64,000 nucleotides of DNA from Thermococcus sp. 18S1 (GTDB lineage Archaea; Methanobacteriota_B; Thermococci; Thermococcales; Thermococcaceae): positions 868,001 to 932,000 of the forward strand of contig NZ_SNUU01000001.1 in NCBI RefSeq assembly GCF_012027645.1, read 5' to 3'. The notes under the pieces were generated by a model, which was given only the letters and a program-made list of their open reading frames with translations, searched no databases and had not been told where the DNA came from. Each line of letters starts with the position of its first letter. Position 1 is the stretch's first letter. Shown here in pieces: positions 5,366-37,033 of the stretch. A program made the translations under genes and the position numbers.

Positions 5366-6152
5366 GGAAATGCTCCGGTATCTGGCCGCCAAGACTGGGC
5401 TGGGCCTGAACTACATCGCCAAGGAGGAGCGCATTTCTTTCCTTCTGAGCCAGCTGTGGGAAATCTTCGGCGAGAAAGCGATACTTAAGGGCGGCACTGC
5501 CCTCAACAGGGTTTACCTCGCAAAGATTGGAGCGGCGAGGTTTTCTGAGGATATAGACATTGACTATTTCAACGGCGACGTTGGCATTGCGGCAGAGGAG
5601 ATAAAAGAGGGCATGAGGCTCGTCGAGGGATTTGACGTTAAGGGGCCGAGGGTTCTGCACAGGACTTTTCGATTCGATTGCTATTACAGGAACCCCCTCG
5701 GGAACCGGGATAGGGTTAAAGTTGAGTTCTACCTCAGCAGGCCGCCTTACATTGAGGCCGGAGTTGAGCTGGTTAAATCCCCATTTGTGGGGGAGTATCC
5801 AACCATGTTCAGGGTATACTCCTTTGAAGACCTGCTCGCCAAGAAACTCACTGCCCTATACAACCGCACTGAAGGCAAGGACATCTACGATTCATTCCAC
5901 GCCCTCAACATGGAGTTTAATAAGAAAAGGCTGGAGGATGCTTTGAAGCTCACCCTCAGATTCTACCATATCGATAATGAGGACTTCCTAAGGAGTTTAA
6001 TTGAGAAGCTCGAGTACGCAAAGGAAAATGCCCGCTACATCGGAAACTCCACCAACCACTTCATTCCAAAGAGCCTGCGTCCCAACTGGGAAGAGATGAT
6101 AGGAAGCCTGAAGCTCAGAATTGAAGAACTGGGTCGGACGATTTCTTTGTAG
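5358..6152 (+). CDS. abiEii: AbiEii-family nucleotidyltransferase toxin
   Basis: 264 residues from ATG 5358 (GGGGTG ribosome-binding site upstream); a longer frame from 5328 is less likely because it would lie deep inside abiEi. The nucleotidyltransferase signature is KGGTALNRVY (44-53) followed by RFSEDIDID (61-69), with the metal-binding acidic residues. The later segment AKKLTALYNRTEGKDIYD matches the conserved R-x-E-x-KD motif of AbiEii. AbiEii enzymes transfer nucleotides to RNA (tRNA in MenT relatives) and cause growth arrest, giving phage abortive infection in bacteria. Whether it acts so in a hyperthermophile is unknown. Confidence 0.87.
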   Translation: MDEEMLRYLAAKTGLGLNYIAKEERISFLLSQLWEIFGEKAILKGGTALNRVYLAKIGAARFSEDIDIDYFNGDVGIAAEEIKEGMRLVEGFDVKGPRVLHRTFRFDCYYRNPLGNRDRVKVEFYLSRPPYIEAGVELVKSPFVGEYPTMFRVYSFEDLLAKKLTALYNRTEGKDIYDSFHALNMEFNKKRLEDALKLTLRFYHIDNEDFLRSLIEKLEYAKENARYIGNSTNHFIPKSLRPNWEEMIGSLKLRIEELGRTISL

Positions 6153-6240
6153 TTCCCACCTTTCCCCAGAGAAAGGTTTATAAGCCAACTCCCTCAATGC
6201 CCACCAGTGATTAAAACCACCTTTCTTGGAGGTGTTCGCA

Positions 6241-26674: not shown

Positions 26675-28075
26675 ATGACCAGCGTTGGAATCATTGGAAG
26701 CGGTGCCGCGGGATTAACCGCCGCAATAGCCCTTGCGAGACGGGGCTTCGACGTGACGGTCATCGGGAGGGGAATAAAGGAGAGCAACTCCTACCTCGCC
26801 CAGGCCGGGATAGCCTTTCCCATCCTCAACGGTGATTCTCCTAAAGCTCACGTTCTGGACACTATCAGGGCCGGCAAGTACCTCAACGATGAAGAGGTTG
26901 TGTGGAGCGTAATCTCAAAGGCGAGCGAGGCCTACGAGTTTCTCCTCTCGATAGGGCTGGAGTTCGAGACCAACGAGACCGAGGGGGGTCACTCATTCCA
27001 CCGCGTCTTCACCGTAAGGAACGAGACCGGAAAGCACCTCATGAAAGTCCTCTATCTGGCCGCCAGGGAAGCGGGCGTTCACTTCGTCGAGGACATTGCC
27101 GAGGAGCTGGCTGTGAGAGAGGGCAAGGCCTACGGGGTCTTTCTCGACGGAGAGCTTCTTACCTTCGATGCTACTATTATAGCCACCGGCGGATTTGCCT
27201 CGCTCTTCAAGTACACCGCCGGTTCGCCCCTCAACCTTGGGGTTCTAATCGGTGATGCCATAATGAAGGGCTCCCCCGCGAGGGACCTGGAGTTCGTCCA
27301 GTTCCACCCGACCGGCTACATCGGGAAAAGAGGCGTTTTCCTCGTCAGCGAGGCCGTCCGCGGTGCCGGGGCAAAGCTGGTGACGGAAGACGGGGAGCGC
27401 TTCGTTAACGAGCTCTCCACGAGGGACATCGTTGCGAGGGCCATTTACCGCCAGATGAAAGCTGGTAAGAGGGTCTTCCTCGACGCAACGGGCATAGAGG
27501 ACTTCAAGAAAAGTTTCCCTCAGATATACGCTTTCCTGGGGAAGGACGGCATCGATCCGGCTGAAGACCTAATCCCGGTCTCCCCGATAGCCCACTACAC
27601 CATCGGCGGGATAGCGGTCGACCTCTGGTACAGGACGGCAATCGAGAACCTCTACGCTGTCGGAGAGGCCATGAGCAACGGCTTCCACGGGGCGAACAGA
27701 TTGGCGAGCAACTCCCTCCTTGAGTGCCTCGTTTCCGGCCTTGAGGTTGCACGAACCATAGCGAGGGACAGGCCAAAGCTCGGCGAGGTTCGGGAGATTC
27801 CGTACCGCTTCGATTCACTGGGGGACGTCGATTCCATCAGGGAGATACTCTGGGAGCATGCTGGCATTGTGAGGAGCGGTCCCTCTTTGAGGGAAGGCTT
27901 AGAGAAGCTCGATTCGGTTGAGATGGATCCGAGGTTAAAGCTGCTTGCGGGCGGAGTCCTTGAGTGTGCCCTCGCGAGGGAAGAAAGCAGGGGCGCCCAC
28001 TACCGCGAGGACTTTCCGGCCATGAGCAAATCCTTCGAGAGACCGAGCTTCTTCGACGGGAGGTGCAGGCTTTAG
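26675..28075 (+). CDS. nadB: L-aspartate oxidase
   Basis: 466 residues. It oxidises L-aspartate to iminoaspartate, the first step of de novo NAD synthesis, with FAD. The FAD dinucleotide fold is at the N-terminus (GIIGSGAAGLTAAIALARR), followed by the substrate-site motifs HSFHRVF, FVQFHPTG and the HGANRLASNSLLE segment of the succinate dehydrogenase/NadB flavoprotein family. At 466 residues it is shorter than bacterial NadB (about 540) because the C-terminal helical domain is reduced, as in other archaeal forms. The product goes to NadA (30131-31039), from which it is separated here by three genes. Confidence 0.93.
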   Translation: MTSVGIIGSGAAGLTAAIALARRGFDVTVIGRGIKESNSYLAQAGIAFPILNGDSPKAHVLDTIRAGKYLNDEEVVWSVISKASEAYEFLLSIGLEFETNETEGGHSFHRVFTVRNETGKHLMKVLYLAAREAGVHFVEDIAEELAVREGKAYGVFLDGELLTFDATIIATGGFASLFKYTAGSPLNLGVLIGDAIMKGSPARDLEFVQFHPTGYIGKRGVFLVSEAVRGAGAKLVTEDGERFVNELSTRDIVARAIYRQMKAGKRVFLDATGIEDFKKSFPQIYAFLGKDGIDPAEDLIPVSPIAHYTIGGIAVDLWYRTAIENLYAVGEAMSNGFHGANRLASNSLLECLVSGLEVARTIARDRPKLGEVREIPYRFDSLGDVDSIREILWEHAGIVRSGPSLREGLEKLDSVEMDPRLKLLAGGVLECALAREESRGAHYREDFPAMSKSFERPSFFDGRCRL

Positions 28076-28126
28076 TTTCGGGTCATGTTTATAACCCCTT
28101 GGCTTAGAGTATGTGTAGGTGATAGT

Positions 28127-28327
28127 ATGCCAAAGGCCATAGAGGCCGTTTATGAAAATGGGGTCATAAAACCTCTGAAACCTCTCCACTTGCCCTCCAA
28201 AAGGATAATTGTCTATATTGAGGAGAGGAAATTCTCCCAGCTCATAGATGAGCTCGAACTTGAGGCGAGGGAGGAGATAGATGTCAGCATCGACGCCGTG
28301 AGGGGTCGGGATGAAAGTAGTTCTTGA
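28127..28327 (+). CDS. DUF104 (AF2212-type) antitoxin
   Basis: 66 residues from ATG 28127 (GGTGATAGT upstream). It is a typical DUF104 protein: AIEAVYENGVIKPLKPLHLP, then a strand IIVYIEERK and a helical acidic tail expected to bind the toxin. Such proteins are partners of PIN-domain RNases in archaea. The gene overlaps the PIN gene by 17 bp, so the two are coupled. A frameshifted relative lies at 12506-12681. Confidence 0.88.
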   Translation: MPKAIEAVYENGVIKPLKPLHLPSKRIIVYIEERKFSQLIDELELEAREEIDVSIDAVRGRDESSS

Positions 28328-28781
28328 CACGAGCGTCATCGCTAAGGCGCTGATGAAGCCCAGAAGATCCCTTCCGCAAAATGTCCTTGAGCGCGAGCTC
28401 AAGACTCACGAGAAGGCAAGGCTGGTTGTGAAACTGTGCGACTCCCATGATGTTTCTATTCCTTTGGCTGGTCTCGTTGAAGTTGCGAGTGTTCTGAGGA
28501 GAAATGGACATTCGAAAGTTATTCACACTGTTATTGAGTCCCTCTCGGTCTCCTATGAGATAGTCCAGGAGGAACTTATCTTCGAAACGGCACTTGATGT
28601 GGCATCACAAACCGGTGCCTCCGGCTTTGACACGTATTTCATAGCGTTGGCGCTTCTAAAAGATGCATTGCTTATTACCGATGACCTCAAAATGTTCAAG
28701 CATTCCACAGACATCGGGATTAAGTCGGTTCTTCTGAGAGACACCACCATAGAAGACCTCCAGGAGCTTCTTAAGCCCTAG
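28311..28781 (+). CDS. PIN-domain ribonuclease toxin (VapC-like)
   Basis: 156 residues. The PIN fold is clear: MKVVLDTSVIAKAL with Asp6, Glu57 in GLVEVAS, Asp107 in SGFDTYFIALA and Asp124/125 in LITDDLKM, the four acidic residues of the metal site. These enzymes cleave RNA (often tRNA or rRNA) to halt growth and are held by the antitoxin encoded just upstream. The DUF104-PIN pair sits between nadB and the DUF401 permease, splitting what looks like a nad gene group. Confidence 0.9.
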   Translation: MKVVLDTSVIAKALMKPRRSLPQNVLERELKTHEKARLVVKLCDSHDVSIPLAGLVEVASVLRRNGHSKVIHTVIESLSVSYEIVQEELIFETALDVASQTGASGFDTYFIALALLKDALLITDDLKMFKHSTDIGIKSVLLRDTTIEDLQELLKP

Positions 28782-28900
28782 CCGGAGATTACTGAAAGCG
28801 CATGGACAACCTTTGAGAGATATGTTCAATCGACGGAAGGTGCAGGCTCTAACCAAAGGTTTAAATTCTCATCGAATCCTTATCATGCCCGGTGAAACGA

Positions 28901-30088
28901 GTGGAACTGCTCTACCTCATCGCCTCCTTCGCGATAGTAATAGCTCTCATCTGGCTTAAAATCAACATTGGCGTCTCGATATTCGTCGGTTCTCTAGTGC
29001 TGGCCTTCCTGTTTGGAATGAGTCCCGGGGATGCCGTTGCGGCCCTTTACCACTCCGCCACCTCGTGGGAGACGATAAGGCTGGTGCTCATAATAGCCTT
29101 CATCATGGGTATGACCTCTGTCTTCTCCCAGATAGGCTACCTGAAGGACATGGAAACGGCGGCGAGCAACCTCTTTCCCAAGGCCAAGTACTCCCTGGCC
29201 ATGCTTCCGGCCCTCATCGGGCTTATGCCCATGCCCGCCGGTGCATTGGTCTCGGCCCCCATGATAGAGCCGGTCGCCGGGAAGTTCGAGATGAGCCCCA
29301 CTGACAAGACCCTCGTCAACTACTGGTTCAGGCATGTATGGGAGCACTCGTGGCCAATGTACCAGGCCATAGTCATCGCCTCGGCCCTCGTTGGAATCTC
29401 GATACGGGAGATGAGCACCAAGATGTTTCCCCTGACGATTCTTATGGCGCTCATCGGCTACGTCCTCCTCATCCGCCCACTTCCGGATGCCGGTTCCGGG
29501 GAGGGAGACGTCAAAACCGGCCTCAGGCTTCTCCTGAAGAGCACCTCTCCAATACTGATAATCATACTCGCCTCCATAGTTCTCGGCTTGGATATGGTCT
29601 ACGGCGCTTTCCTGGGCTTTATCGCAGCCCTCATCCCCAACCTTAGAAGGGTGGACGTGAAGAAGGTGCTCGCCTATGCCCTCCAGCCTAAGATAGTCTT
29701 CCTTCTCGTTGCGGTGATGTACTTCAAATACGTGCTCCAGGTTACGGGGGCGGTTGAGACGCTTCCGAACGCCATGATATCAATGAACCTGCCGGTCGTC
29801 CTCGTTCTCATGGTGACGCCCTTCATCGTTGGCCTTATGACGGGCATAAGCTTCGCCTACGTGGGCATGACCTTTCCCCTGCTCCTGCCTTTCTTTACCA
29901 GCTTTGACATGGTGGCGCTCGCTTACCTGAGCGGCTACATGGGCATGCTCTTCAGTCCCGTGCACCTCTGCTTCGTGTTCTCGGCCGAATACTACGGGGC
30001 TGAACTCAGGAGGGTCTACCTGCGGCTCCTTCCTCCGGCACTGCTCCTCTTCGCTGGGGGCGTTGCCTACATAGCCCTCGTTCTCTGA
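28901..30088 (+). CDS. DUF401-family membrane transporter
   Basis: About 395 residues and 10-11 hydrophobic spans. The start is given as GTG 28901, which has GGTGA at 28891-28895; GTG 28892 as a leaderless start is the alternative. The sequence GLMPMPAGALVSAPMIEPV and NYWFRHVWEHSWPMYQ are strongly conserved-looking polar loops within the membrane, typical of the DUF401 group in the ion transporter/anion permease clan. Its place between nadB and nadAC suggests transport of an NAD precursor or of aspartate-like acids, which is only inference from position. Confidence 0.8.
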   Translation: MELLYLIASFAIVIALIWLKINIGVSIFVGSLVLAFLFGMSPGDAVAALYHSATSWETIRLVLIIAFIMGMTSVFSQIGYLKDMETAASNLFPKAKYSLAMLPALIGLMPMPAGALVSAPMIEPVAGKFEMSPTDKTLVNYWFRHVWEHSWPMYQAIVIASALVGISIREMSTKMFPLTILMALIGYVLLIRPLPDAGSGEGDVKTGLRLLLKSTSPILIIILASIVLGLDMVYGAFLGFIAALIPNLRRVDVKKVLAYALQPKIVFLLVAVMYFKYVLQVTGAVETLPNAMISMNLPVVLVLMVTPFIVGLMTGISFAYVGMTFPLLLPFFTSFDMVALAYLSGYMGMLFSPVHLCFVFSAEYYGAELRRVYLRLLPPALLLFAGGVAYIALVL

Positions 30089-30102
30089 AAGCTTTTATAC
30101 CC

Positions 30103-30119
30103 TGGAACATAGCATTCCA
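30103..30119. promoter_or_regulatory. Inverted repeat at the nadA promoter
   Basis: TGGAA and TTCCA flank a 7-bp spacer, just downstream of the TATA element (GCTTTTATACC, about 30091-30101) and therefore on the start site. GGTGA and the ATG at 30131 follow. A repressor responding to NAD or its precursors could bind here; the repeat is short, so it may be chance. No clear copy was found before nadB. Confidence 0.35.
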
Positions 30120-30130
30120 CAGGTGAGACC

Positions 30131-31039
30131 ATGAAGATGGAGGAGCTCGTGCGGGAGATTGAACGCCTGAAGGAGGAGCGCAACGCTATAATAATGGCCC
30201 ACAACTACCAGCTGCCTGAAATCCAGGACATAGCCGACTTCCTTGGCGACAGCCTTGAGCTCGCGAGGAAGGCAGTCAACGTTGATGCCGACGTCATAGT
30301 CTTCGCGGGAGTAGACTTCATGGCCGAGACCGCGAAGATCCTCAATCCCGAAAAGACTGTCCTGCTCCCGAGCAAAAGGGCCACCTGCGCCATGGCCAAC
30401 ATGCTGAAGGTCGAGCACATCCTCAGGGCCAAGGAGCAGTATCCGGACGCTCCGGTGGTTCTCTACGTAAACACCACCGCCGAGACCAAGGCCTACGCCG
30501 ACGTGACGGTGACCTCAGCCAACGCGGTCAAAATAGTTGAAAAGCTCGATTCCGATGTCATAATCTTCGGCCCCGATAAGAATCTGGCGAACTACGTGGC
30601 CAAACAGACCGGCAAGAGGGTCATTCCTGTACCAGAGTACGGGCACTGCTACGTTCACAGACAGTTCACCCTTGAGGACGTCGAACGCGCTAGGAAGCTC
30701 TATCCCAACGCCAAGCTGATGGTTCACCCCGAGTGCGAGCCGGAAGTGCAGGAAAGGGCCGACATAATAGTCTCCACGGGAGGAATGATAAGGCGCGCGA
30801 AGGAGTGGAACGAGTGGGTCGTCTTCACGGAGCACGAGATGGTCTACAGGCTCGGGAAGCTCTACCCCGATATCAAGTTCCACCCGGCCAAGGAGGACGC
30901 CGTCTGCATAGGAATGAAGGCCATAACGCTCAACCACATATACGAGGCCCTCAGGGACATGAAGTACGAGGTTGAAGTGCCGGAGGAGATAGCCCAGAAG
31001 GCCAGGAAGGCCATCGAGAGAATGCTGGAGATGAGCTGA
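30131..31039 (+). CDS. nadA: Quinolinate synthase
   Basis: 302 residues, the usual length of the archaeal single-[4Fe-4S] enzyme. It condenses iminoaspartate from NadB with dihydroxyacetone phosphate to give quinolinate. Cluster ligands are expected at Cys86 (ATCAMAN), Cys173 (YGHCYVH) and Cys259 (DAVCIGM), matching the three-cysteine pattern of Pyrococcus NadA, and the substrate-binding HNYQ (24-27) and STGGM (215-219) motifs are present. GGTGA precedes the ATG. It is 1 bp from nadC. Confidence 0.96.
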
Positions 31040-31040
31040 G

Positions 31041-31874
31041 ATGGTGCCTCTCTCCTATCTCCTTCGCTTCATCGAGGAGGACGCTCCCTTCGGCGACGTC
31101 ACGAGCGAGGCGGTGGTTCCGGAGGGAATCAATGCTAAGGCCGTAATCATAGCCAAGGGGGAAGGGGTTATAGCGGGCGTTGAGGAGGCCAAAGCCCTGT
31201 TCGAACACTTCGGGGTTAAAGTTGAGGTCAGAAAACATGACGGGGAGAGAGTGGGGAAGGGAGATGCCATCCTTGAGCTTGAAGGGGACGCACGCTCCAT
31301 ACTCCTCGTCGAGAGAACCGCTTTGAACGTCATGGGCAGGATGAGCGGCATAGCCACCGAGGTCAGAAGGCTGGTCGATAAGGTTAAGGCCGTGAATCCC
31401 AAGGTTCGCGTTGCCGGAACCAGGAAGACCCTCCTCAAGCCGCTGGATAAGAGGGCGATACTCATCGGCGGCGGCGAGCCGCACCGCTTCTCGCTGAGCG
31501 ACGCGATACTCATAAAGGACAACCATCTCGCTCTAGTCCCCCTGGAGGAAGCCATAAGGCGCGCCAAGGCATTCAGCGTTTACAAGGTCGTCGAGGTCGA
31601 AGTTGAGAGTCTTGAGGATGCCATTAAAGCGGCAAAGGCTGGAGCCGATGTTGTGATGCTCGACAACATGAGTCCGGTCGAGATAGCCGGGACGATAGAG
31701 GCTCTAAAGCGCGAGGGTCTTCGCGATAGGGTGAAGATCGAGGTCTCCGGCGGAATAACCCCCGAAAACATCGAGGAGTACGCCAGGCTTGACATCGACG
31801 TCATAAGCCTCGGCTACCTCACGCATTCCGTCAAGAACTTCGACGTCAGCCTTGAGATAATTGGAAAGGTATGA
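31041..31874 (+). CDS. nadC: Nicotinate-nucleotide pyrophosphorylase (quinolinate phosphoribosyltransferase)
   Basis: 277 residues. It converts quinolinate and PRPP to nicotinate mononucleotide. The type II phosphoribosyltransferase pattern is present: ERTALNVMGRMSGIAT, the basic GTRKTLLKPLDKRA, HRFSLSDAILIKDNH, then EVEVESLEDA and VMLDNMSP, and the phosphate-binding EVSGGITPENI. The ATG follows the nadA stop by one base, so translation is coupled. Confidence 0.96.
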   Translation: MVPLSYLLRFIEEDAPFGDVTSEAVVPEGINAKAVIIAKGEGVIAGVEEAKALFEHFGVKVEVRKHDGERVGKGDAILELEGDARSILLVERTALNVMGRMSGIATEVRRLVDKVKAVNPKVRVAGTRKTLLKPLDKRAILIGGGEPHRFSLSDAILIKDNHLALVPLEEAIRRAKAFSVYKVVEVEVESLEDAIKAAKAGADVVMLDNMSPVEIAGTIEALKREGLRDRVKIEVSGGITPENIEEYARLDIDVISLGYLTHSVKNFDVSLEIIGKV

Positions 31875-31952
31875 GCAAAGGTTTTTCATCTATTTTTCGA
31901 TTCTTCCGATATCTTTTTCGGTCCCTTGAACCTTCTCCGCGGCAAGGTTTAT

Positions 31953-31995
31953 ATTCAAGTTTTTTCTTGAATAATATTGCAAGTCATAACTTGAA
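31953..31995. promoter_or_regulatory. Double palindromic operator of pdxST
   Basis: ATTCAAG (31953-31959) and CTTGAAT (31966-31972) form a perfect 7-bp inverted repeat with a T6 spacer. A second palindrome, CAAGT-CATA-ACTTG (31980-31993), lies with its centre 24 bp further on. The half-site CTTGAA also occurs at 31925-31930 and 31990-31995. The TATA element (GGTTTATATTC, about 31947-31956) touches the first repeat and the coding start follows at 32008, so this is a likely repressor site for vitamin B6 synthesis. Confidence 0.6.
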
Positions 31996-32007
31996 ATGGT
32001 GATGCCC

Positions 32008-33015
32008 ATGGGAAAGCTCCACGTTATAGAGGCCAAGGGTACGGACAGGCTCAAGAGGGGCTTCGCCAAGATGGTTAAGGGCGGAGTGATAATGGACGTC
32101 ACGAACGCCGAGCAGGCCAGAATAGCGGAGGAAGCCGGCGCGGTTTCTGTTATGGCGCTCCACATGGTTCCCGCGGACATAAGAAGGGCCGGCGGCGTTG
32201 CCAGAATGGCCCCCGTTGAGAAGATTCGGGAAATAATGGATGCGGTGACGATCCCGGTCATGGCGAAGGTAAGGATCGGCCACGTGGCCGAGGCCAGAAT
32301 CCTTGAGGCCCTCGGCGTCGACATGATAGATGAAAGCGAGGTTCTGACACCCGCCGATCCGTATTTCCACATAGACAAGAGGGAGTTCAGCGTCCCCTTC
32401 GTCTGCGGCGCCAGAAACCTCGGCGAGGCTGTGAGGAGGATATGGGAAGGCTCGGCCATGATCAGAACCAAGGGTGAGGCCGGAACCGGCAACATAGTTG
32501 AGGCAGTAAGGCACGTCCGCCTCGTCGCCGAGGGCATAAGGCGGATTCAGGCCATGACCGATGAGCAGGTCTACGGGGTTGCCGAGAAGTTCGCCGAGCC
32601 TTACGTCAGGCTCTCGCTCAACGTCAAGGAGATAGCCGGTCTGCCGGCGAAGGTTCTTGAGAATGAACCTGTTTACGGCCACTACACCTACGGCGAGATA
32701 GTCGAGGGGCTTTACCGGATTCTTCTTGAGATAAAGAAGCTCGGCCGCCTTCCGGTCGTTAACTTCGCGGCTGGAGGAGTCGCCACCCCAGCCGACGCTG
32801 CCCTGATGATGGAGATGGGAATGGACGGTGTCTTCGTCGGCTCGGGAATCTTCAAGAGCTCCCAGCCCGAGAAAATGGCCAGGGCTATAGTTGAAGCCGT
32901 CAACCACTGGGATGAGCCGGACGTTTTGGCGGAGATAAGCAGGGAAATCGGCGAGCCGATGCGCGGCAGGGACATTGAAGAACTGGAGGTTCGCCTTGAG
33001 GAGAGGGGCGTCTGA
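32008..33015 (+). CDS. pdxS: Pyridoxal 5'-phosphate synthase lyase subunit
   Basis: 335 residues from ATG 32008 ([12 protein letters not shown]), the usual archaeal length; ATGs at 31996 and 32002 are part of the GGTGATG ribosome-binding region. It makes PLP from ribose 5-phosphate, glyceraldehyde 3-phosphate and ammonia as a dodecamer with PdxT. The Schiff-base lysine lies in VMAKVRIGH, the second in [10 protein letters not shown], and the phosphate site in [15 protein letters not shown] and [11 protein letters not shown]. It is followed by pdxT after 32 bp. Controlled by the palindromes directly upstream. Confidence 0.97.
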
Positions 33016-33047
33016 TCTCTTCTCTGTCTTTTCATGAGGTGGTGAGA

Positions 33048-33641
33048 GTGGTCAGGGTGGGTGTTATCGGCCTTCAGGGTGACGTCAGCGAACACATCGA
33101 GACTGCAAGGAAGGCCCTAGAAAACCTTGGGGTCACCGGTGAAGCTGTCTGGCTCAGGAAACCGGGGCAGCTGGAGGGGATTTCCGCGATCATAATCCCC
33201 GGCGGCGAGAGCACGACGATATCGAGGCTTATGCTGAAAAACGGTCTGTTTGAACCGCTCAAAAAGCTCGGCGAGGAAGGACTTCCCATAATGGGAACCT
33301 GTGCCGGCCTGATAATGCTCTCAAAGGAGGTAATAGGCGCCACTCCGGAGCAGAGGTTCCTCGGGCTCCTCGACGTCAGGGTAAACAGAAACGCCTACGG
33401 CAGGCAGGTGGACAGCTTCGAGGCACCGATAAAGCTGGCCTTCAGTGACGACCCCTTCCCAGGAGTCTTTATCCGCGCCCCGAGGATAGTCGAACTCCTG
33501 AACGATAAGGTCAGGCCGATAGCCTGGCTTGGAGACAGGGTCGTGGGAGTCGAGGCCGGCAACGTAATCGGGCTGGAGTTCCATCCGGAGCTAACGGAGG
33601 ACACAAGGGTTCACGAATACTTCCTTGAGAAGGCGGTATAA
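33048..33641 (+). CDS. pdxT: Pyridoxal 5'-phosphate synthase glutaminase subunit
   Basis: 197 residues from GTG 33048 (MVRVGVIGLQGD), chosen since GGTGGTGA precedes it and the length fits the family. This class I glutamine amidotransferase supplies ammonia to PdxS. The nucleophile is Cys85 in GTCAGLIML, the oxyanion motif is PGGEST (51-56), and the His-Glu pair is in LEFHPEL. Same operon as pdxS. Confidence 0.96.
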   Translation: MVRVGVIGLQGDVSEHIETARKALENLGVTGEAVWLRKPGQLEGISAIIIPGGESTTISRLMLKNGLFEPLKKLGEEGLPIMGTCAGLIMLSKEVIGATPEQRFLGLLDVRVNRNAYGRQVDSFEAPIKLAFSDDPFPGVFIRAPRIVELLNDKVRPIAWLGDRVVGVEAGNVIGLEFHPELTEDTRVHEYFLEKAV

Positions 33642-33714
33642 TCTGAACATTTTTTCATCAATTTTTGCCAGAAAGTTTTTTATTTTTGCCGTTTAAATGT
33701 TTATAGGTGGTAGC

Positions 33715-35736
33715 GTGAGTGAGCCCAAGACGGTCGTGTGTCCCTACTGCGGCTTCGGCTGCAGGCTTCTCGTTGATCCCAAGACGATGAGGGTTAAACC
33801 CCACCGAGGCGAGCCTAACAGGGGCAAGCTCTGCCCCAAGGGTCTCCACGCGACTGAGTTCGTTCTTTCCGCGGACAGGCTCAAGCGTCCCCTTAAGCGT
33901 GAAGGCTCCAGAATGAGGCCGATAAGCTGGGGACAGGCCATCGAGGAGATAGCGGGTAAACTCCTCGAGATCCGCGAGCTGTATGGGGCGGATGCAGTGG
34001 CGTTCATAGCCTCCTCCAAGGTCAGCAACGAGGAGAACTATCTCCTCCAGAAGATTGCGCGGCTTTTCGGCACCAACAACATAGACAACTGTGCCCGTCT
34101 CTGCCACGAGGCGAGTGTTCACGCCCTCAAGATGACCGTTGGGGCGGGAGCGCAGACCAACCCCTACGAAGACCTGGAGAGATTCGGAGTTATACTCATC
34201 TGGGGCTACAATCCCGCCGAGACCCACCCCGTTGTCATGGACTACATCCTGAGGGCCAAGAAGAGGGGAGCGAAAGTAATCGTCGTTGACGTCAGGGAAA
34301 CCAGAACGATGGCCTTCGCGGATTATAGGCTCATCATCCGCCCCGGGACTGACATAGCCCTCGCGAATGCCCTGATGAACGTCATAATCCGGGAGGAGCT
34401 CTACGATGAGGAGTTCATAAAGACCAGAACCGTTGGCTTCTCGGAGGTAAGGATGGCTGTGAGGAAGTACACGCCGGAGTACGCGGAGAAGGTAACCGGA
34501 ATTCCGGCCGAAAGGATCCGCGAAGTTGCGAGAACCTTTGCCCTCGCCGGAAGCGGTGCGATAATGTGGGGCATGGGGCTCACCCAGCACGTTTCAGGCG
34601 TTGAGAACGTCATGGCCGTTATAGACCTCGCCCTGCTCCTCGGCTACATCGGCGAAAAGGGCGGCCTCTACCCGATGCGCGGTCAGAACAACGTTCAGGG
34701 AGCGGCATACATGGGAGCGCTGAGTGAGTTCCTGCCGGGCTATGTCCCCCTGACCGATGAGAGGTTCAGGAAGCGCGTGGCGAAGATATGGGGCGTGGAA
34801 GACCTCCCAACGGAGCGCGGGCTCTACCTCACGGAGCTCTGGGAGGCGATAGAGAGCGGCGACGTCAAGGCACTCTACATAGTCGGGGAAAACCCTGCCG
34901 TCAGTGAGGCGGACTTCCTCCGGGTGAGAAACGCCCTCAGAAAGCTCGACCTCCTCGTCGTTCAGGACGTTTTCATGAGCAGGACTGCCCGCTATGCCCA
35001 CTACGTCCTGCCCGCTTCGGCCTTCTGCGAGAAATCCGGCAGCTATATGAACAGCGAGAGGAGAATCCAGTGGAGCCACAAGGTCTGCGAGCCGATGGGT
35101 GATTCCAAGCCCGACTGGGAGATACTTACCATGCTCGGCAGGACCCTCGGTTTGCCTGGGTTCAACTATTCGAGCGTTGAAGAGATAACGGCAGAGTACT
35201 TCCGCCTCTTCCCTTCCTTGGAGGAGAGGAGCGTTGACGAGCTGAAGGCGGGCGATGGGGTATTCCTTCCGAAGAAGAGGCTCCACACCTGGGAGTTCTC
35301 AACGCCAGACGGAAAGGCCAGGTTCATCGCTGTGGAGCAGGTGCAGCCGTGGGAGAGGCCGGACTACGAGTACCCCTTCATCCTCACCACAATCAGGCTG
35401 ATAAGCCACTACAACACCGGCGAAATGACCCTCAGGAGCCCATCACTCGTCAGGCTGATGGGAGAGCCCAGGGTGCTGGTAAACAGGAGCGACGCGGAGA
35501 GGCTTGGAATCCACGACGGCGACTGGGTCGAGATTGAGACGAGGCGCGGGAATATTAGAATGAGGGCCAAGCTCGGCGGTGTTCCATCGGGCGTCGTCGC
35601 GGTCCCGTTCCACTTCAAGGCGAACAAAATAACGAGCCCGGCTCTAAACAAAGCCGGAACACCGGAGCTCAAGTTCTCCGCGGCGAGGCTGAGAAAGCTC
35701 AGAAGCGGAAAGCCCACTCCGGGTACTCACCGGTGA
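33715..35736 (+). CDS. Molybdopterin oxidoreductase, formate dehydrogenase alpha-like
   Basis: 673 residues from GTG 33715 (AGGTGG at 33705-33710; ATG 33697 lies before it). Cys9, Cys12, Cys16 and Cys40 bind a [4Fe-4S] cluster. [11 protein letters not shown] has Cys130 at the place of the molybdenum or tungsten ligand that is Sec or Cys in formate dehydrogenases, and the following SVHALK matches the same family. MGLTQH and [10 protein letters not shown] are typical cofactor-binding stretches. No iron-sulfur beta subunit, hydrogenase or membrane partner lies next to it, so the electron acceptor is unknown. The 3' end overlaps purF by 38 bp, tail to tail. Confidence 0.88.
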
Positions 35737-37033
35737 GGCATGCCAGACAGAGATCCTTCCTCCCAACGGCCTTTTTCAGCCCATCGACGCTGAGATAAGC
35801 CAGGCTGTCGGCCCCTATGGATTCCCTCACCTTCTCAACGCTTCCAAACGCCGCTATGAGTTCGTGCCTCGTCGGAATGTCCACCCCCATGTAGCACGGG
35901 TACCTTATCGGCGGAGAAGCTATCCTGACGTGAACCTCCCTCGCTCCGGCCCTTCTGAGCATGGCGACGATGCGCTTCATTGTAGTCCCCCTGACGATTG
36001 AATCGTCAACAAGAACGACGCTCTTTCCATCTATTACCTCCCTCACCGGCGAGAGCTTGAGCTTGACCTTCAGCTCGCGGTAGAACTGACCGGGAGTTAT
36101 GAACGTCCTCCCTATGTAGCGGTTCTTTATGAGGCCCTCCGAGTAGGGAATCCCGCTGACCCTGGAGAAGCCAAGCGCCGCCGCCCTTCCAGAGTCCGGC
36201 ACGGCTATGACGACGTCTCCATTGGCAGGGCTCTCCTTCGCCAGCTCCTCCCCCATCCTGACCCTCGCAGTATAGACGTTCACACCGTCTATCGTGCTGT
36301 CCGGACGGGCGAAGTATATGTACTCAAAAACGCAGCCGCGGCGCCCCCCCGTTGCCACGACCCTGCTTTCGATTTCATCCTCCGAGAGGAGGAAGACCTC
36401 CCCCGGCCTGACATCCCTTACCTCCTCCACAAAGAGCCTCAACGCGGAATCCTCCGAGGCGAAATAGTGGCCGTCTCCACTCCCGTAGCTGAGCGGCCTG
36501 AAGCCGACCGGATCCCTAGCCACGAGTATCTTCCCGTCGAAGAGAAGGGCCACGGAGTATGCCCCTTTGACCTCCTCAAAGACGGCCTTCATGGCCTCAA
36601 ACTCGTCTCCGGTCTCGCGGAGGTGCCAGAGAAAAGAAATCCCCAACAGCTCGGAATCTACCGAGTGCCTGAACTTAATCCCCAGCCGTTCGTAGTGCCT
36701 CCTGAGGGGAAGGAAATTCGTGAGGGTCCCGTTGTGGGCTATCGCGATGCTCTTTCCGCAGCAGCTGGCCTCCAGCGGCTGGGTTTCCGTGAGGGAGCCG
36801 GAGGTGGAATACCGGACGTGGGCTATTACCATCTTGGATTTCAGCTTCGCTATCTCGCCGTTCCTGAAGACCTCCGAGACGAGCCCCCGGCCGGCTACCG
36901 TTTTTATCCTGTGCCTCCAGACGCTTATCCCCGCGCTCTCCTGCCCCCTGTGCTGAAGTGCTATCAGCGCGTAGTAGGCTTTTCTGGGCGCGTTCTCGGC
37001 AACCGCTGCAAAGACGCCGCACTTCTCCCTCAT
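35699..37033 (-). CDS. purF: Amidophosphoribosyltransferase
   Basis: About 444 residues from ATG 37033 ([10 protein letters not shown]). A longer frame to 37180 crosses the promoter and is rejected. It performs the first committed step of purine synthesis, PRPP plus glutamine to phosphoribosylamine. Cys5 becomes the N-terminal nucleophile after removal of a four-residue propeptide. HRGQESAG and AHNGTLTN belong to the glutaminase domain; [13 protein letters not shown] is the PRPP site. Four cysteines ([23 protein letters not shown]) match the [4Fe-4S] ligands of the Bacillus-type enzyme. Divergent from purC. Confidence 0.95.

Follow-up and report, generated by a model that had tools for sequence, protein, structure and literature searches.

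How is the synthesis of vitamin B6 controlled in Archaea? The question is raised by two inverted repeats that lie in front of pdxS, the gene for the lyase subunit of pyridoxal 5'-phosphate synthase, in Thermococcus sp. 18S1. In bacteria a single regulator, PdxR (MocR subfamily of GntR proteins), serves both pdxST and pdxU, a gene for B6 transport, and MocR regulators are stated to be absent from Archaea (PMC5320631). Regulons for riboflavin (RbkR) and thiamine (ThiR) have been predicted in P. furiosus (PMC10746257), and the main text of a description of seven P. furiosus regulons makes no mention of pdx or pyridoxine (PMC6316755).

The window examined here is a stretch of 64,000 nucleotides (G000:C1:868001-932000) within a genome of 1.99 Mb. 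An original prediction, made from these letters alone, held that the repeats are the operator of vitamin B6 synthesis. The repeats are conserved sites within the pdxST core promoter, and comparison among genomes suggests that this operator is best read as part of a B6 regulon with two targets.

Organization of the pdxST promoter

The pdxS gene (32008-33015, +) scores above the cut-offs of the NCBIfam models PRK04180.1 (484 bits) and TIGR00343 (474 bits) and matches SOR_SNZ of Pfam; its likely start is the ATG at 32008, favoured over a start at 31996. The open reading frame of the glutaminase subunit, pdxT (33039-33641, +; NCBIfam TIGR03800, 246 bits), begins 23 bp after the end of pdxS and is presumably co-transcribed with it. 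Directly upstream on the same strand are nadA and nadC, assigned by curated models. The NAD synthesis genes share their strand with a DUF401 membrane protein (28892-30088, +) that lies between nadA and a PIN gene; the latter overlaps the gene for an AF2212-like small protein that precedes it, and the two (28085-28781, +) are likely a toxin-antitoxin pair.

The promoter of pdxS contains a TATA-like box, TTTATATT (31948-31955, +), with a possible BRE, GCAAGG, directly 5' of it (31942-31947, +). Palindrome 1 (31954-31971) has the form TTCAAG-N6-CTTGAA with the spacer TTTTTT, and palindrome 2 (31978-31995) reads TGCAAG-N6-CTTGAA with the spacer TCATAA. Their centres, at 31962.5 and 31986.5, are 24 bp apart, which bears out the original description of two CTTGAA/TTCAAG-type repeats at that distance; the repeats also lie, as described, between the TATA element and the pdxS start, although the TATA box and palindrome 1 share 2 bp. 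Palindrome 2 ends 2 bp 5' of the likely ribosome-binding site GGTGAT (31998-32003, +), which matches the GGDGRD consensus of T. kodakarensis (PMC4247193). Since transcription in that species starts at a median of 23 bp past the TATA box (PMC4247193), the start of pdxS transcription is predicted near 31978, which would place site 1 between the TATA box and the start, and site 2 on about the first 18 transcribed bases, up to the edge of the ribosome-binding site.

The near-perfect, paired form of the motif is what sets this promoter apart. The exact 18-mer pattern TTCAAG-N6-CTTGAA has a single copy in the whole genome, the pdxS site. Pairs of CAAG-N6-CTTG at a spacing of 20-28 bp, a pattern picked after being seen, occur once in the window; none arose when the window was shuffled 200 times with dinucleotides preserved, nor in 5000 shufflings of the 133-bp segment 31875-32007. 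Only this form is unusual, because matches with up to two mismatches are common, both in the window (7, with 3.6 expected) and genome-wide (173, versus 133 for the reversed control); a search for further pairs, as proposed with the original prediction, thus returned frequent loose matches and no second exact 18-mer. The palindrome pair before pdxS is a real feature.

Conservation among the Thermococcaceae

A search of 94 Thermococcaceae genomes found a pdxS match in 75, and 69 upstream regions were read after six matches that were partial, broken or spurious (G058, G062, G064, G081, G082, and G083) had been dropped. Palindrome 1, with at most one mismatch in its 10 half-site positions, is present in 47 of the 69 regions and in all six genera; such a site is expected by chance in about 0.3% of cases per region at even base composition, and the half-sites are perfect in 37 of the 47. 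The palindromes are therefore not missing before pdxS orthologues, and in this respect the original prediction stands. A second site (up to three mismatches) follows 23–25 bp downstream of the first in 41 of the 47 operators, at a spacing of 24 bp in 28 cases, 23 bp in eight and 25 bp in five. The spacing to the TATA box is kept as well: among the 47, a YTTATA was found in 44 relatives and starts 7 bp 5' of TCAAG in 42 of these. Column information over the 47 operators averages 1.89 bits in the half-sites (a value inflated because the rows were selected on the half-sites), 1.17 bits in the unselected spacer and 0.29 bits upstream of the TATA box. The original prediction also counted a CTTGAA at 31925-31930 (+) as an extra half-site. 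The hexamer is there, but just one of the 47 operator-bearing promoters, that of the window genome itself, has it, so it is probably a chance occurrence and no part of the operator.

Beyond pdxS, one further promoter carries the motif repeatedly, that of a gene for the S component of an ECF transporter (S gene), described in the following section; no third promoter was seen to recur with the search patterns and in the genomes used. The pattern TATNTNCAAGTTTTNNCTTGA, which combines TATA box and palindrome, gave 55 matches with at most one mismatch in the 94 genomes (6 for the reversed control), of which 44 were placed before pdxS by comparison of coordinates (the one in G081 being counted without a gene check on its contig), five before the S gene, one before a truncated second copy of pdxS and five elsewhere. 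With TCAAGTTNNAACTTGA, 46 sites were found in 27 chosen genomes (20 for the reversed control), 34 of them before pdxS or the S gene and 12 elsewhere. Two more exact copies of TCAAGTTNNAACTTGA (G078 and G082) lie at the end of an open reading frame named by eye as moeA-like, overlapping or adjoining it, and are probably due to chance.

The truncated pdxS copy, whose match is to the first 38 residues, occurs in G016 (contig C18) behind a second complete double palindrome (L141, about 6127-6167, -), perhaps the remnant of a transferred or duplicated locus. A wide scan of contigs with the palindrome pattern returned mostly bacterial matches and seven records from Thermococci or Thermococcaceae. 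In one Oscillospiraceae metagenome assembly (JALEMR01), TATATNCAAGTTTTNNCTTGA occurs 18 times, spread over 17 loci (L397, L401, L404, L405, and 13 further ones); this is far above chance for an 18-base pattern and represents an unrelated element, either a dispersed repeat or a regulon.

A second target related to HmpT

The product of the S gene is a membrane protein some 200 aa long. Two members of the group score 139 and 119 bits against Pfam PF07155 (cut-off 26.7), and all NCBIfam models touched by the protein remain under their cut-offs. The nearest solved structure is HmpT (4HZU chain S), matched at an E-value of 1.9e-22 by the protein from G088 and of 3.5e-17 by that of the window genome. 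PdxU and PdxU2/HmpT have been placed in the same Pfam family (PMC9997740). Pyridoxamine has been extracted from and found bound to HmpT, and the abstract of that report gives the identity of the HmpT substrate, hydroxymethylpyrimidine (HMP) or forms of B6, as previously uncertain (PMC4860826). In an alignment, four of the seven HmpT pocket residues are identical in the archaeal protein (W76, Y120, N140, and Q143); the others are changed, E41 to D (an acidic swap), H84 to K and Q87 to E. Homology suggests that the substrate of the archaeal S component is a B6 vitamer, and it may differ from that of HmpT because of these three pocket positions.

A match to the S gene was obtained in 88 of the 94 genomes, nine of the matches being only 23–30% identical and possibly not orthologous. 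The palindrome (up to one mismatch) is present upstream in 57 of the 88, or in 57 of 79 if the nine distant matches are excluded, and lies at or just past the TATA box. In the window genome the gene is at G000:C1:575807-576388 and TAAAGTTATAACTTGA at 575757-575772. Nineteen genomes gave no match to pdxS, including 10 with a completeness of 90% or more and a contamination of no more than 5%; the S gene is present in 17 of the 19, and the site precedes it in all 17. A conserved second target of this kind strengthens the connection with vitamin B6 that the original prediction had drawn from pdxST.

Joint presence and absence of the operator

The motif is absent at pdxS in 22 of the 69 promoters, all from the window's own genus. 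The S-gene site was found in 36 of 46 genomes that have the pdxS site and in none of nine that do not (Fisher p 1.5e-5, kinship uncorrected), the nine being motif-negative genomes whose S gene is orthologue-like and has a full upstream region. In the wider contrast none of the 19 motif-negative genomes with any S match carries the site; the narrower group is the fairer one because nine of the matches are 23–30% identical and one genome (G065) has 33 bp of upstream sequence. The operator is thus conserved at two promoters with linked functions, and is present and absent together at both. In 10 of the 46 genomes with the pdxS site (G004, G006, G008, G012, G029, G035, G041, G048, G059, and G068) the best S-promoter site has at least two mismatches, and the site of G009, counted as positive, may be fortuitous, through overlap with the TATA region there.

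In a tree of 37 pdxS genes (39 were tried) the motif-negative ones cluster, yet at least three changes are needed on supported branches, so the tree does not establish a single loss of the motif. Ten of the 22 promoters without the motif (G019, G020, G021, G030, G033, G042, G050, G055, G065, and G067) share another 18-bp palindrome, near TTCAAAYC-N3-AYCTGAA and positioned some 8 bp farther past the TATA box. This different palindrome suggests a changed specificity or a different protein, and turnover of the operator is possible. In seven motif-negative genomes (G019, G021, G030, G033, G042, G067, and G072) the best matches to the S component are only 23–29% identical to the query; an S component for another substrate is a possible replacement there.

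Search for the regulator

According to the original prediction no gene for a PLP-responsive regulator lies nearby, and this agrees with an inspection by eye of the open reading frames at 27000-37000 of the window and of nine further pdxS loci (about 12–13 kb), in which no regulator gene adjacent to pdxST was recognised. Candidates elsewhere in the genome were screened on their presence pattern, using two HTH families and three motif-negative genomes (G022, G024, and G033) against one to three positive ones; none of 37 candidate regulators of the window genome fits the distribution of the operator. PF01022 and PF13412 served to collect the winged-helix genes, and fragments of 28 of these were checked against the three negative genomes and the positive G074. 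Only L260 (ArsR-type) and L280 (Lrp-type, with a Cys tail) were found in G074 and had no orthologue-like counterpart in any of the negatives. L280 was discarded, as its strong matches are confined to 20 of 94 genomes and include the motif-negative G028 and G069; L260 was discarded for a strong match in motif-negative G028 and for the lack of one in motif-positive G005, G007, G015, G027, G032, G035, G073, G076, G078, G080, and others. Nine further proteins, an RbkR-like and a ThiR-like one among them, were each strongly matched in at least one motif-negative genome. The ThiR-like protein is L320, which we take to be such from its look. RbkR and ThiR do not fit the distribution of the operator, since each of the three motif-negative genomes used has likely homologues of both.

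Signs of autoregulation were sought upstream of 57 genes with HTH hits (some of which are not regulators), and nothing resembling the operator was found: one site with at most one mismatch (TCGAGCCTCTGCTTGA) precedes the RbkR-like gene and four sites have two mismatches. The regulator may belong to other families, or may have been retained in some of the motif-negative genomes.

Two regulator genes lie in the vicinity of the S gene. A protein with HTH and AsnC domains, about 5 kb away in two genomes, was rejected as a candidate because it is matched in 94 of 94 genomes. An Lrp/AsnC-type gene (G000:C1:582668-582814; L248 13375-13845, -) is separated from the S gene by about 6 kb in the window genome and by about 8 kb in G022 and G024, and has a weak site, TAAAGGAAAACCTTAA, upstream.

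A model for the operator and its alternatives

The two palindromes would be tandem sites for one dimeric DNA-binding protein, dimeric binding being suggested by their symmetry, that represses pdxST by occupying the core promoter. Site 1 would cover about -24 to -7, from the TATA box to the predicted start, and site 2 about +1 to +18, and a dimer on either should collide with the transcription machinery. Through its own copy of the palindrome the gene for the HmpT/PdxU2-type S component would be repressed by the same protein, so that pdxST and the S gene would form a B6 regulon of two targets, to make or to import the vitamin, presumably off when a B6 vitamer is plentiful; the identity of the targets points to PLP as the most likely signal. 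Taken as a whole, this reading of one dimeric repressor for synthesis and uptake is considered probable, with roughly three chances in four or slightly better. The original view that the position fits a repressor is supported by the location of the sites downstream of the TATA box, and repression is the likely mode of action, since archaeal activators, Tar among them, are described as binding on the upstream side of BRE/TATA (PMC6737238).

The same location makes it improbable that the bound protein activates, or acts both ways, as dual-function regulators such as TrmBL1 are known in archaea (PMC4706686): both sites lie past the TATA core and flank the predicted start. Slightly less improbable, at about one chance in ten, is that the same operator answers to a signal other than B6 (thiamine, HMP or another metabolite), with pdxST as one of its outputs. 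The earlier uncertainty over the cargo of HmpT leaves room for this, as does ThiR, a predicted regulator of thiamine transport (PMC10746257) with L320 as its likely homologue here; but pdxST encodes an enzyme devoted to B6 synthesis, all three motif-negative genomes tried have the ThiR-like protein as well, and no promoters other than those of pdxS and the S gene were seen to recur in the genomes and with the patterns searched.

Instead of being a DNA site, palindrome 2 could act in the transcript by forming a leader hairpin close to the ribosome-binding site, and pairing of CAAGU with ACUUG is feasible in the leader. This is very unlikely, because the predicted leader is no stabler than shuffled sequences (z 0.20; 111 of 200 shuffles are as stable), the only match to an Rfam family stays below the cut-off (E 0.23; 19.9 bits against 48), and site 1, which bears the same symmetric motif, lies upstream of the predicted start and would not be transcribed. 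Least credible of all is that the repeats reflect chance or the AT-rich architecture of the core promoter, kept by recent common descent. Loose matches are indeed frequent in the genome, but the half-sites persist where the upstream flanks have diverged, the shuffled promoter stretches yielded no pair, and another gene, unlinked to pdxS, bears the motif too.

Relation to known systems and significance

Like the regulons of PdxR, the proposed two-target repressor would place pdxST and a putative B6 transporter under one operator, and PdxR motifs too consist of repeated boxes (PMC5320631); unlike them, the palindromes here lie downstream of an archaeal TATA box. In several bacterial species pdxR, whose product combines a GntR-type regulator with an aminotransferase-like domain, adjoins pdxST and binds the shared intergenic region, whereas no such neighbour was recognised here. 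The second target belongs with HmpT/PdxU2 in PF07155. With RbkR and ThiR the proposed system would have in common that it is a vitamin regulon of the Thermococcales, the target pathways being different. Operators of other Thermococcus regulators are likewise palindromic or pseudo-palindromic, but differ from TTCAAG-N6-CTTGAA in sequence: the activator Tar (TK0271) recognises TGGACA-N8-TGTCCA upstream of the TATA box (PMC6737238) and the repressor EnfR a 36-bp pseudo-palindrome (PMC10570040).

As a type of system this is a familiar one, a vitamin regulon; its novelty, judged by the open-access literature searched, lies in its serving B6 in Archaea. That literature yielded neither a description of this operator nor an archaeal regulator for B6. 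A more specific claim, that a dedicated B6 sensor-repressor unrelated to MocR/PdxR controls just these two transcripts and was lost or rewired in part of the window's genus, is put forward tentatively, at slightly below even chances. If true, such a sensor-repressor would be the first transcriptional control of B6 described in Archaea, and the operator offers a handle for capturing it. B6 transporters are a recognised gap (PMC9997740), and co-regulation would tie an orphan ECF S component to this vitamin, also in the genomes without a detected pdxS, which would presumably need to import B6.
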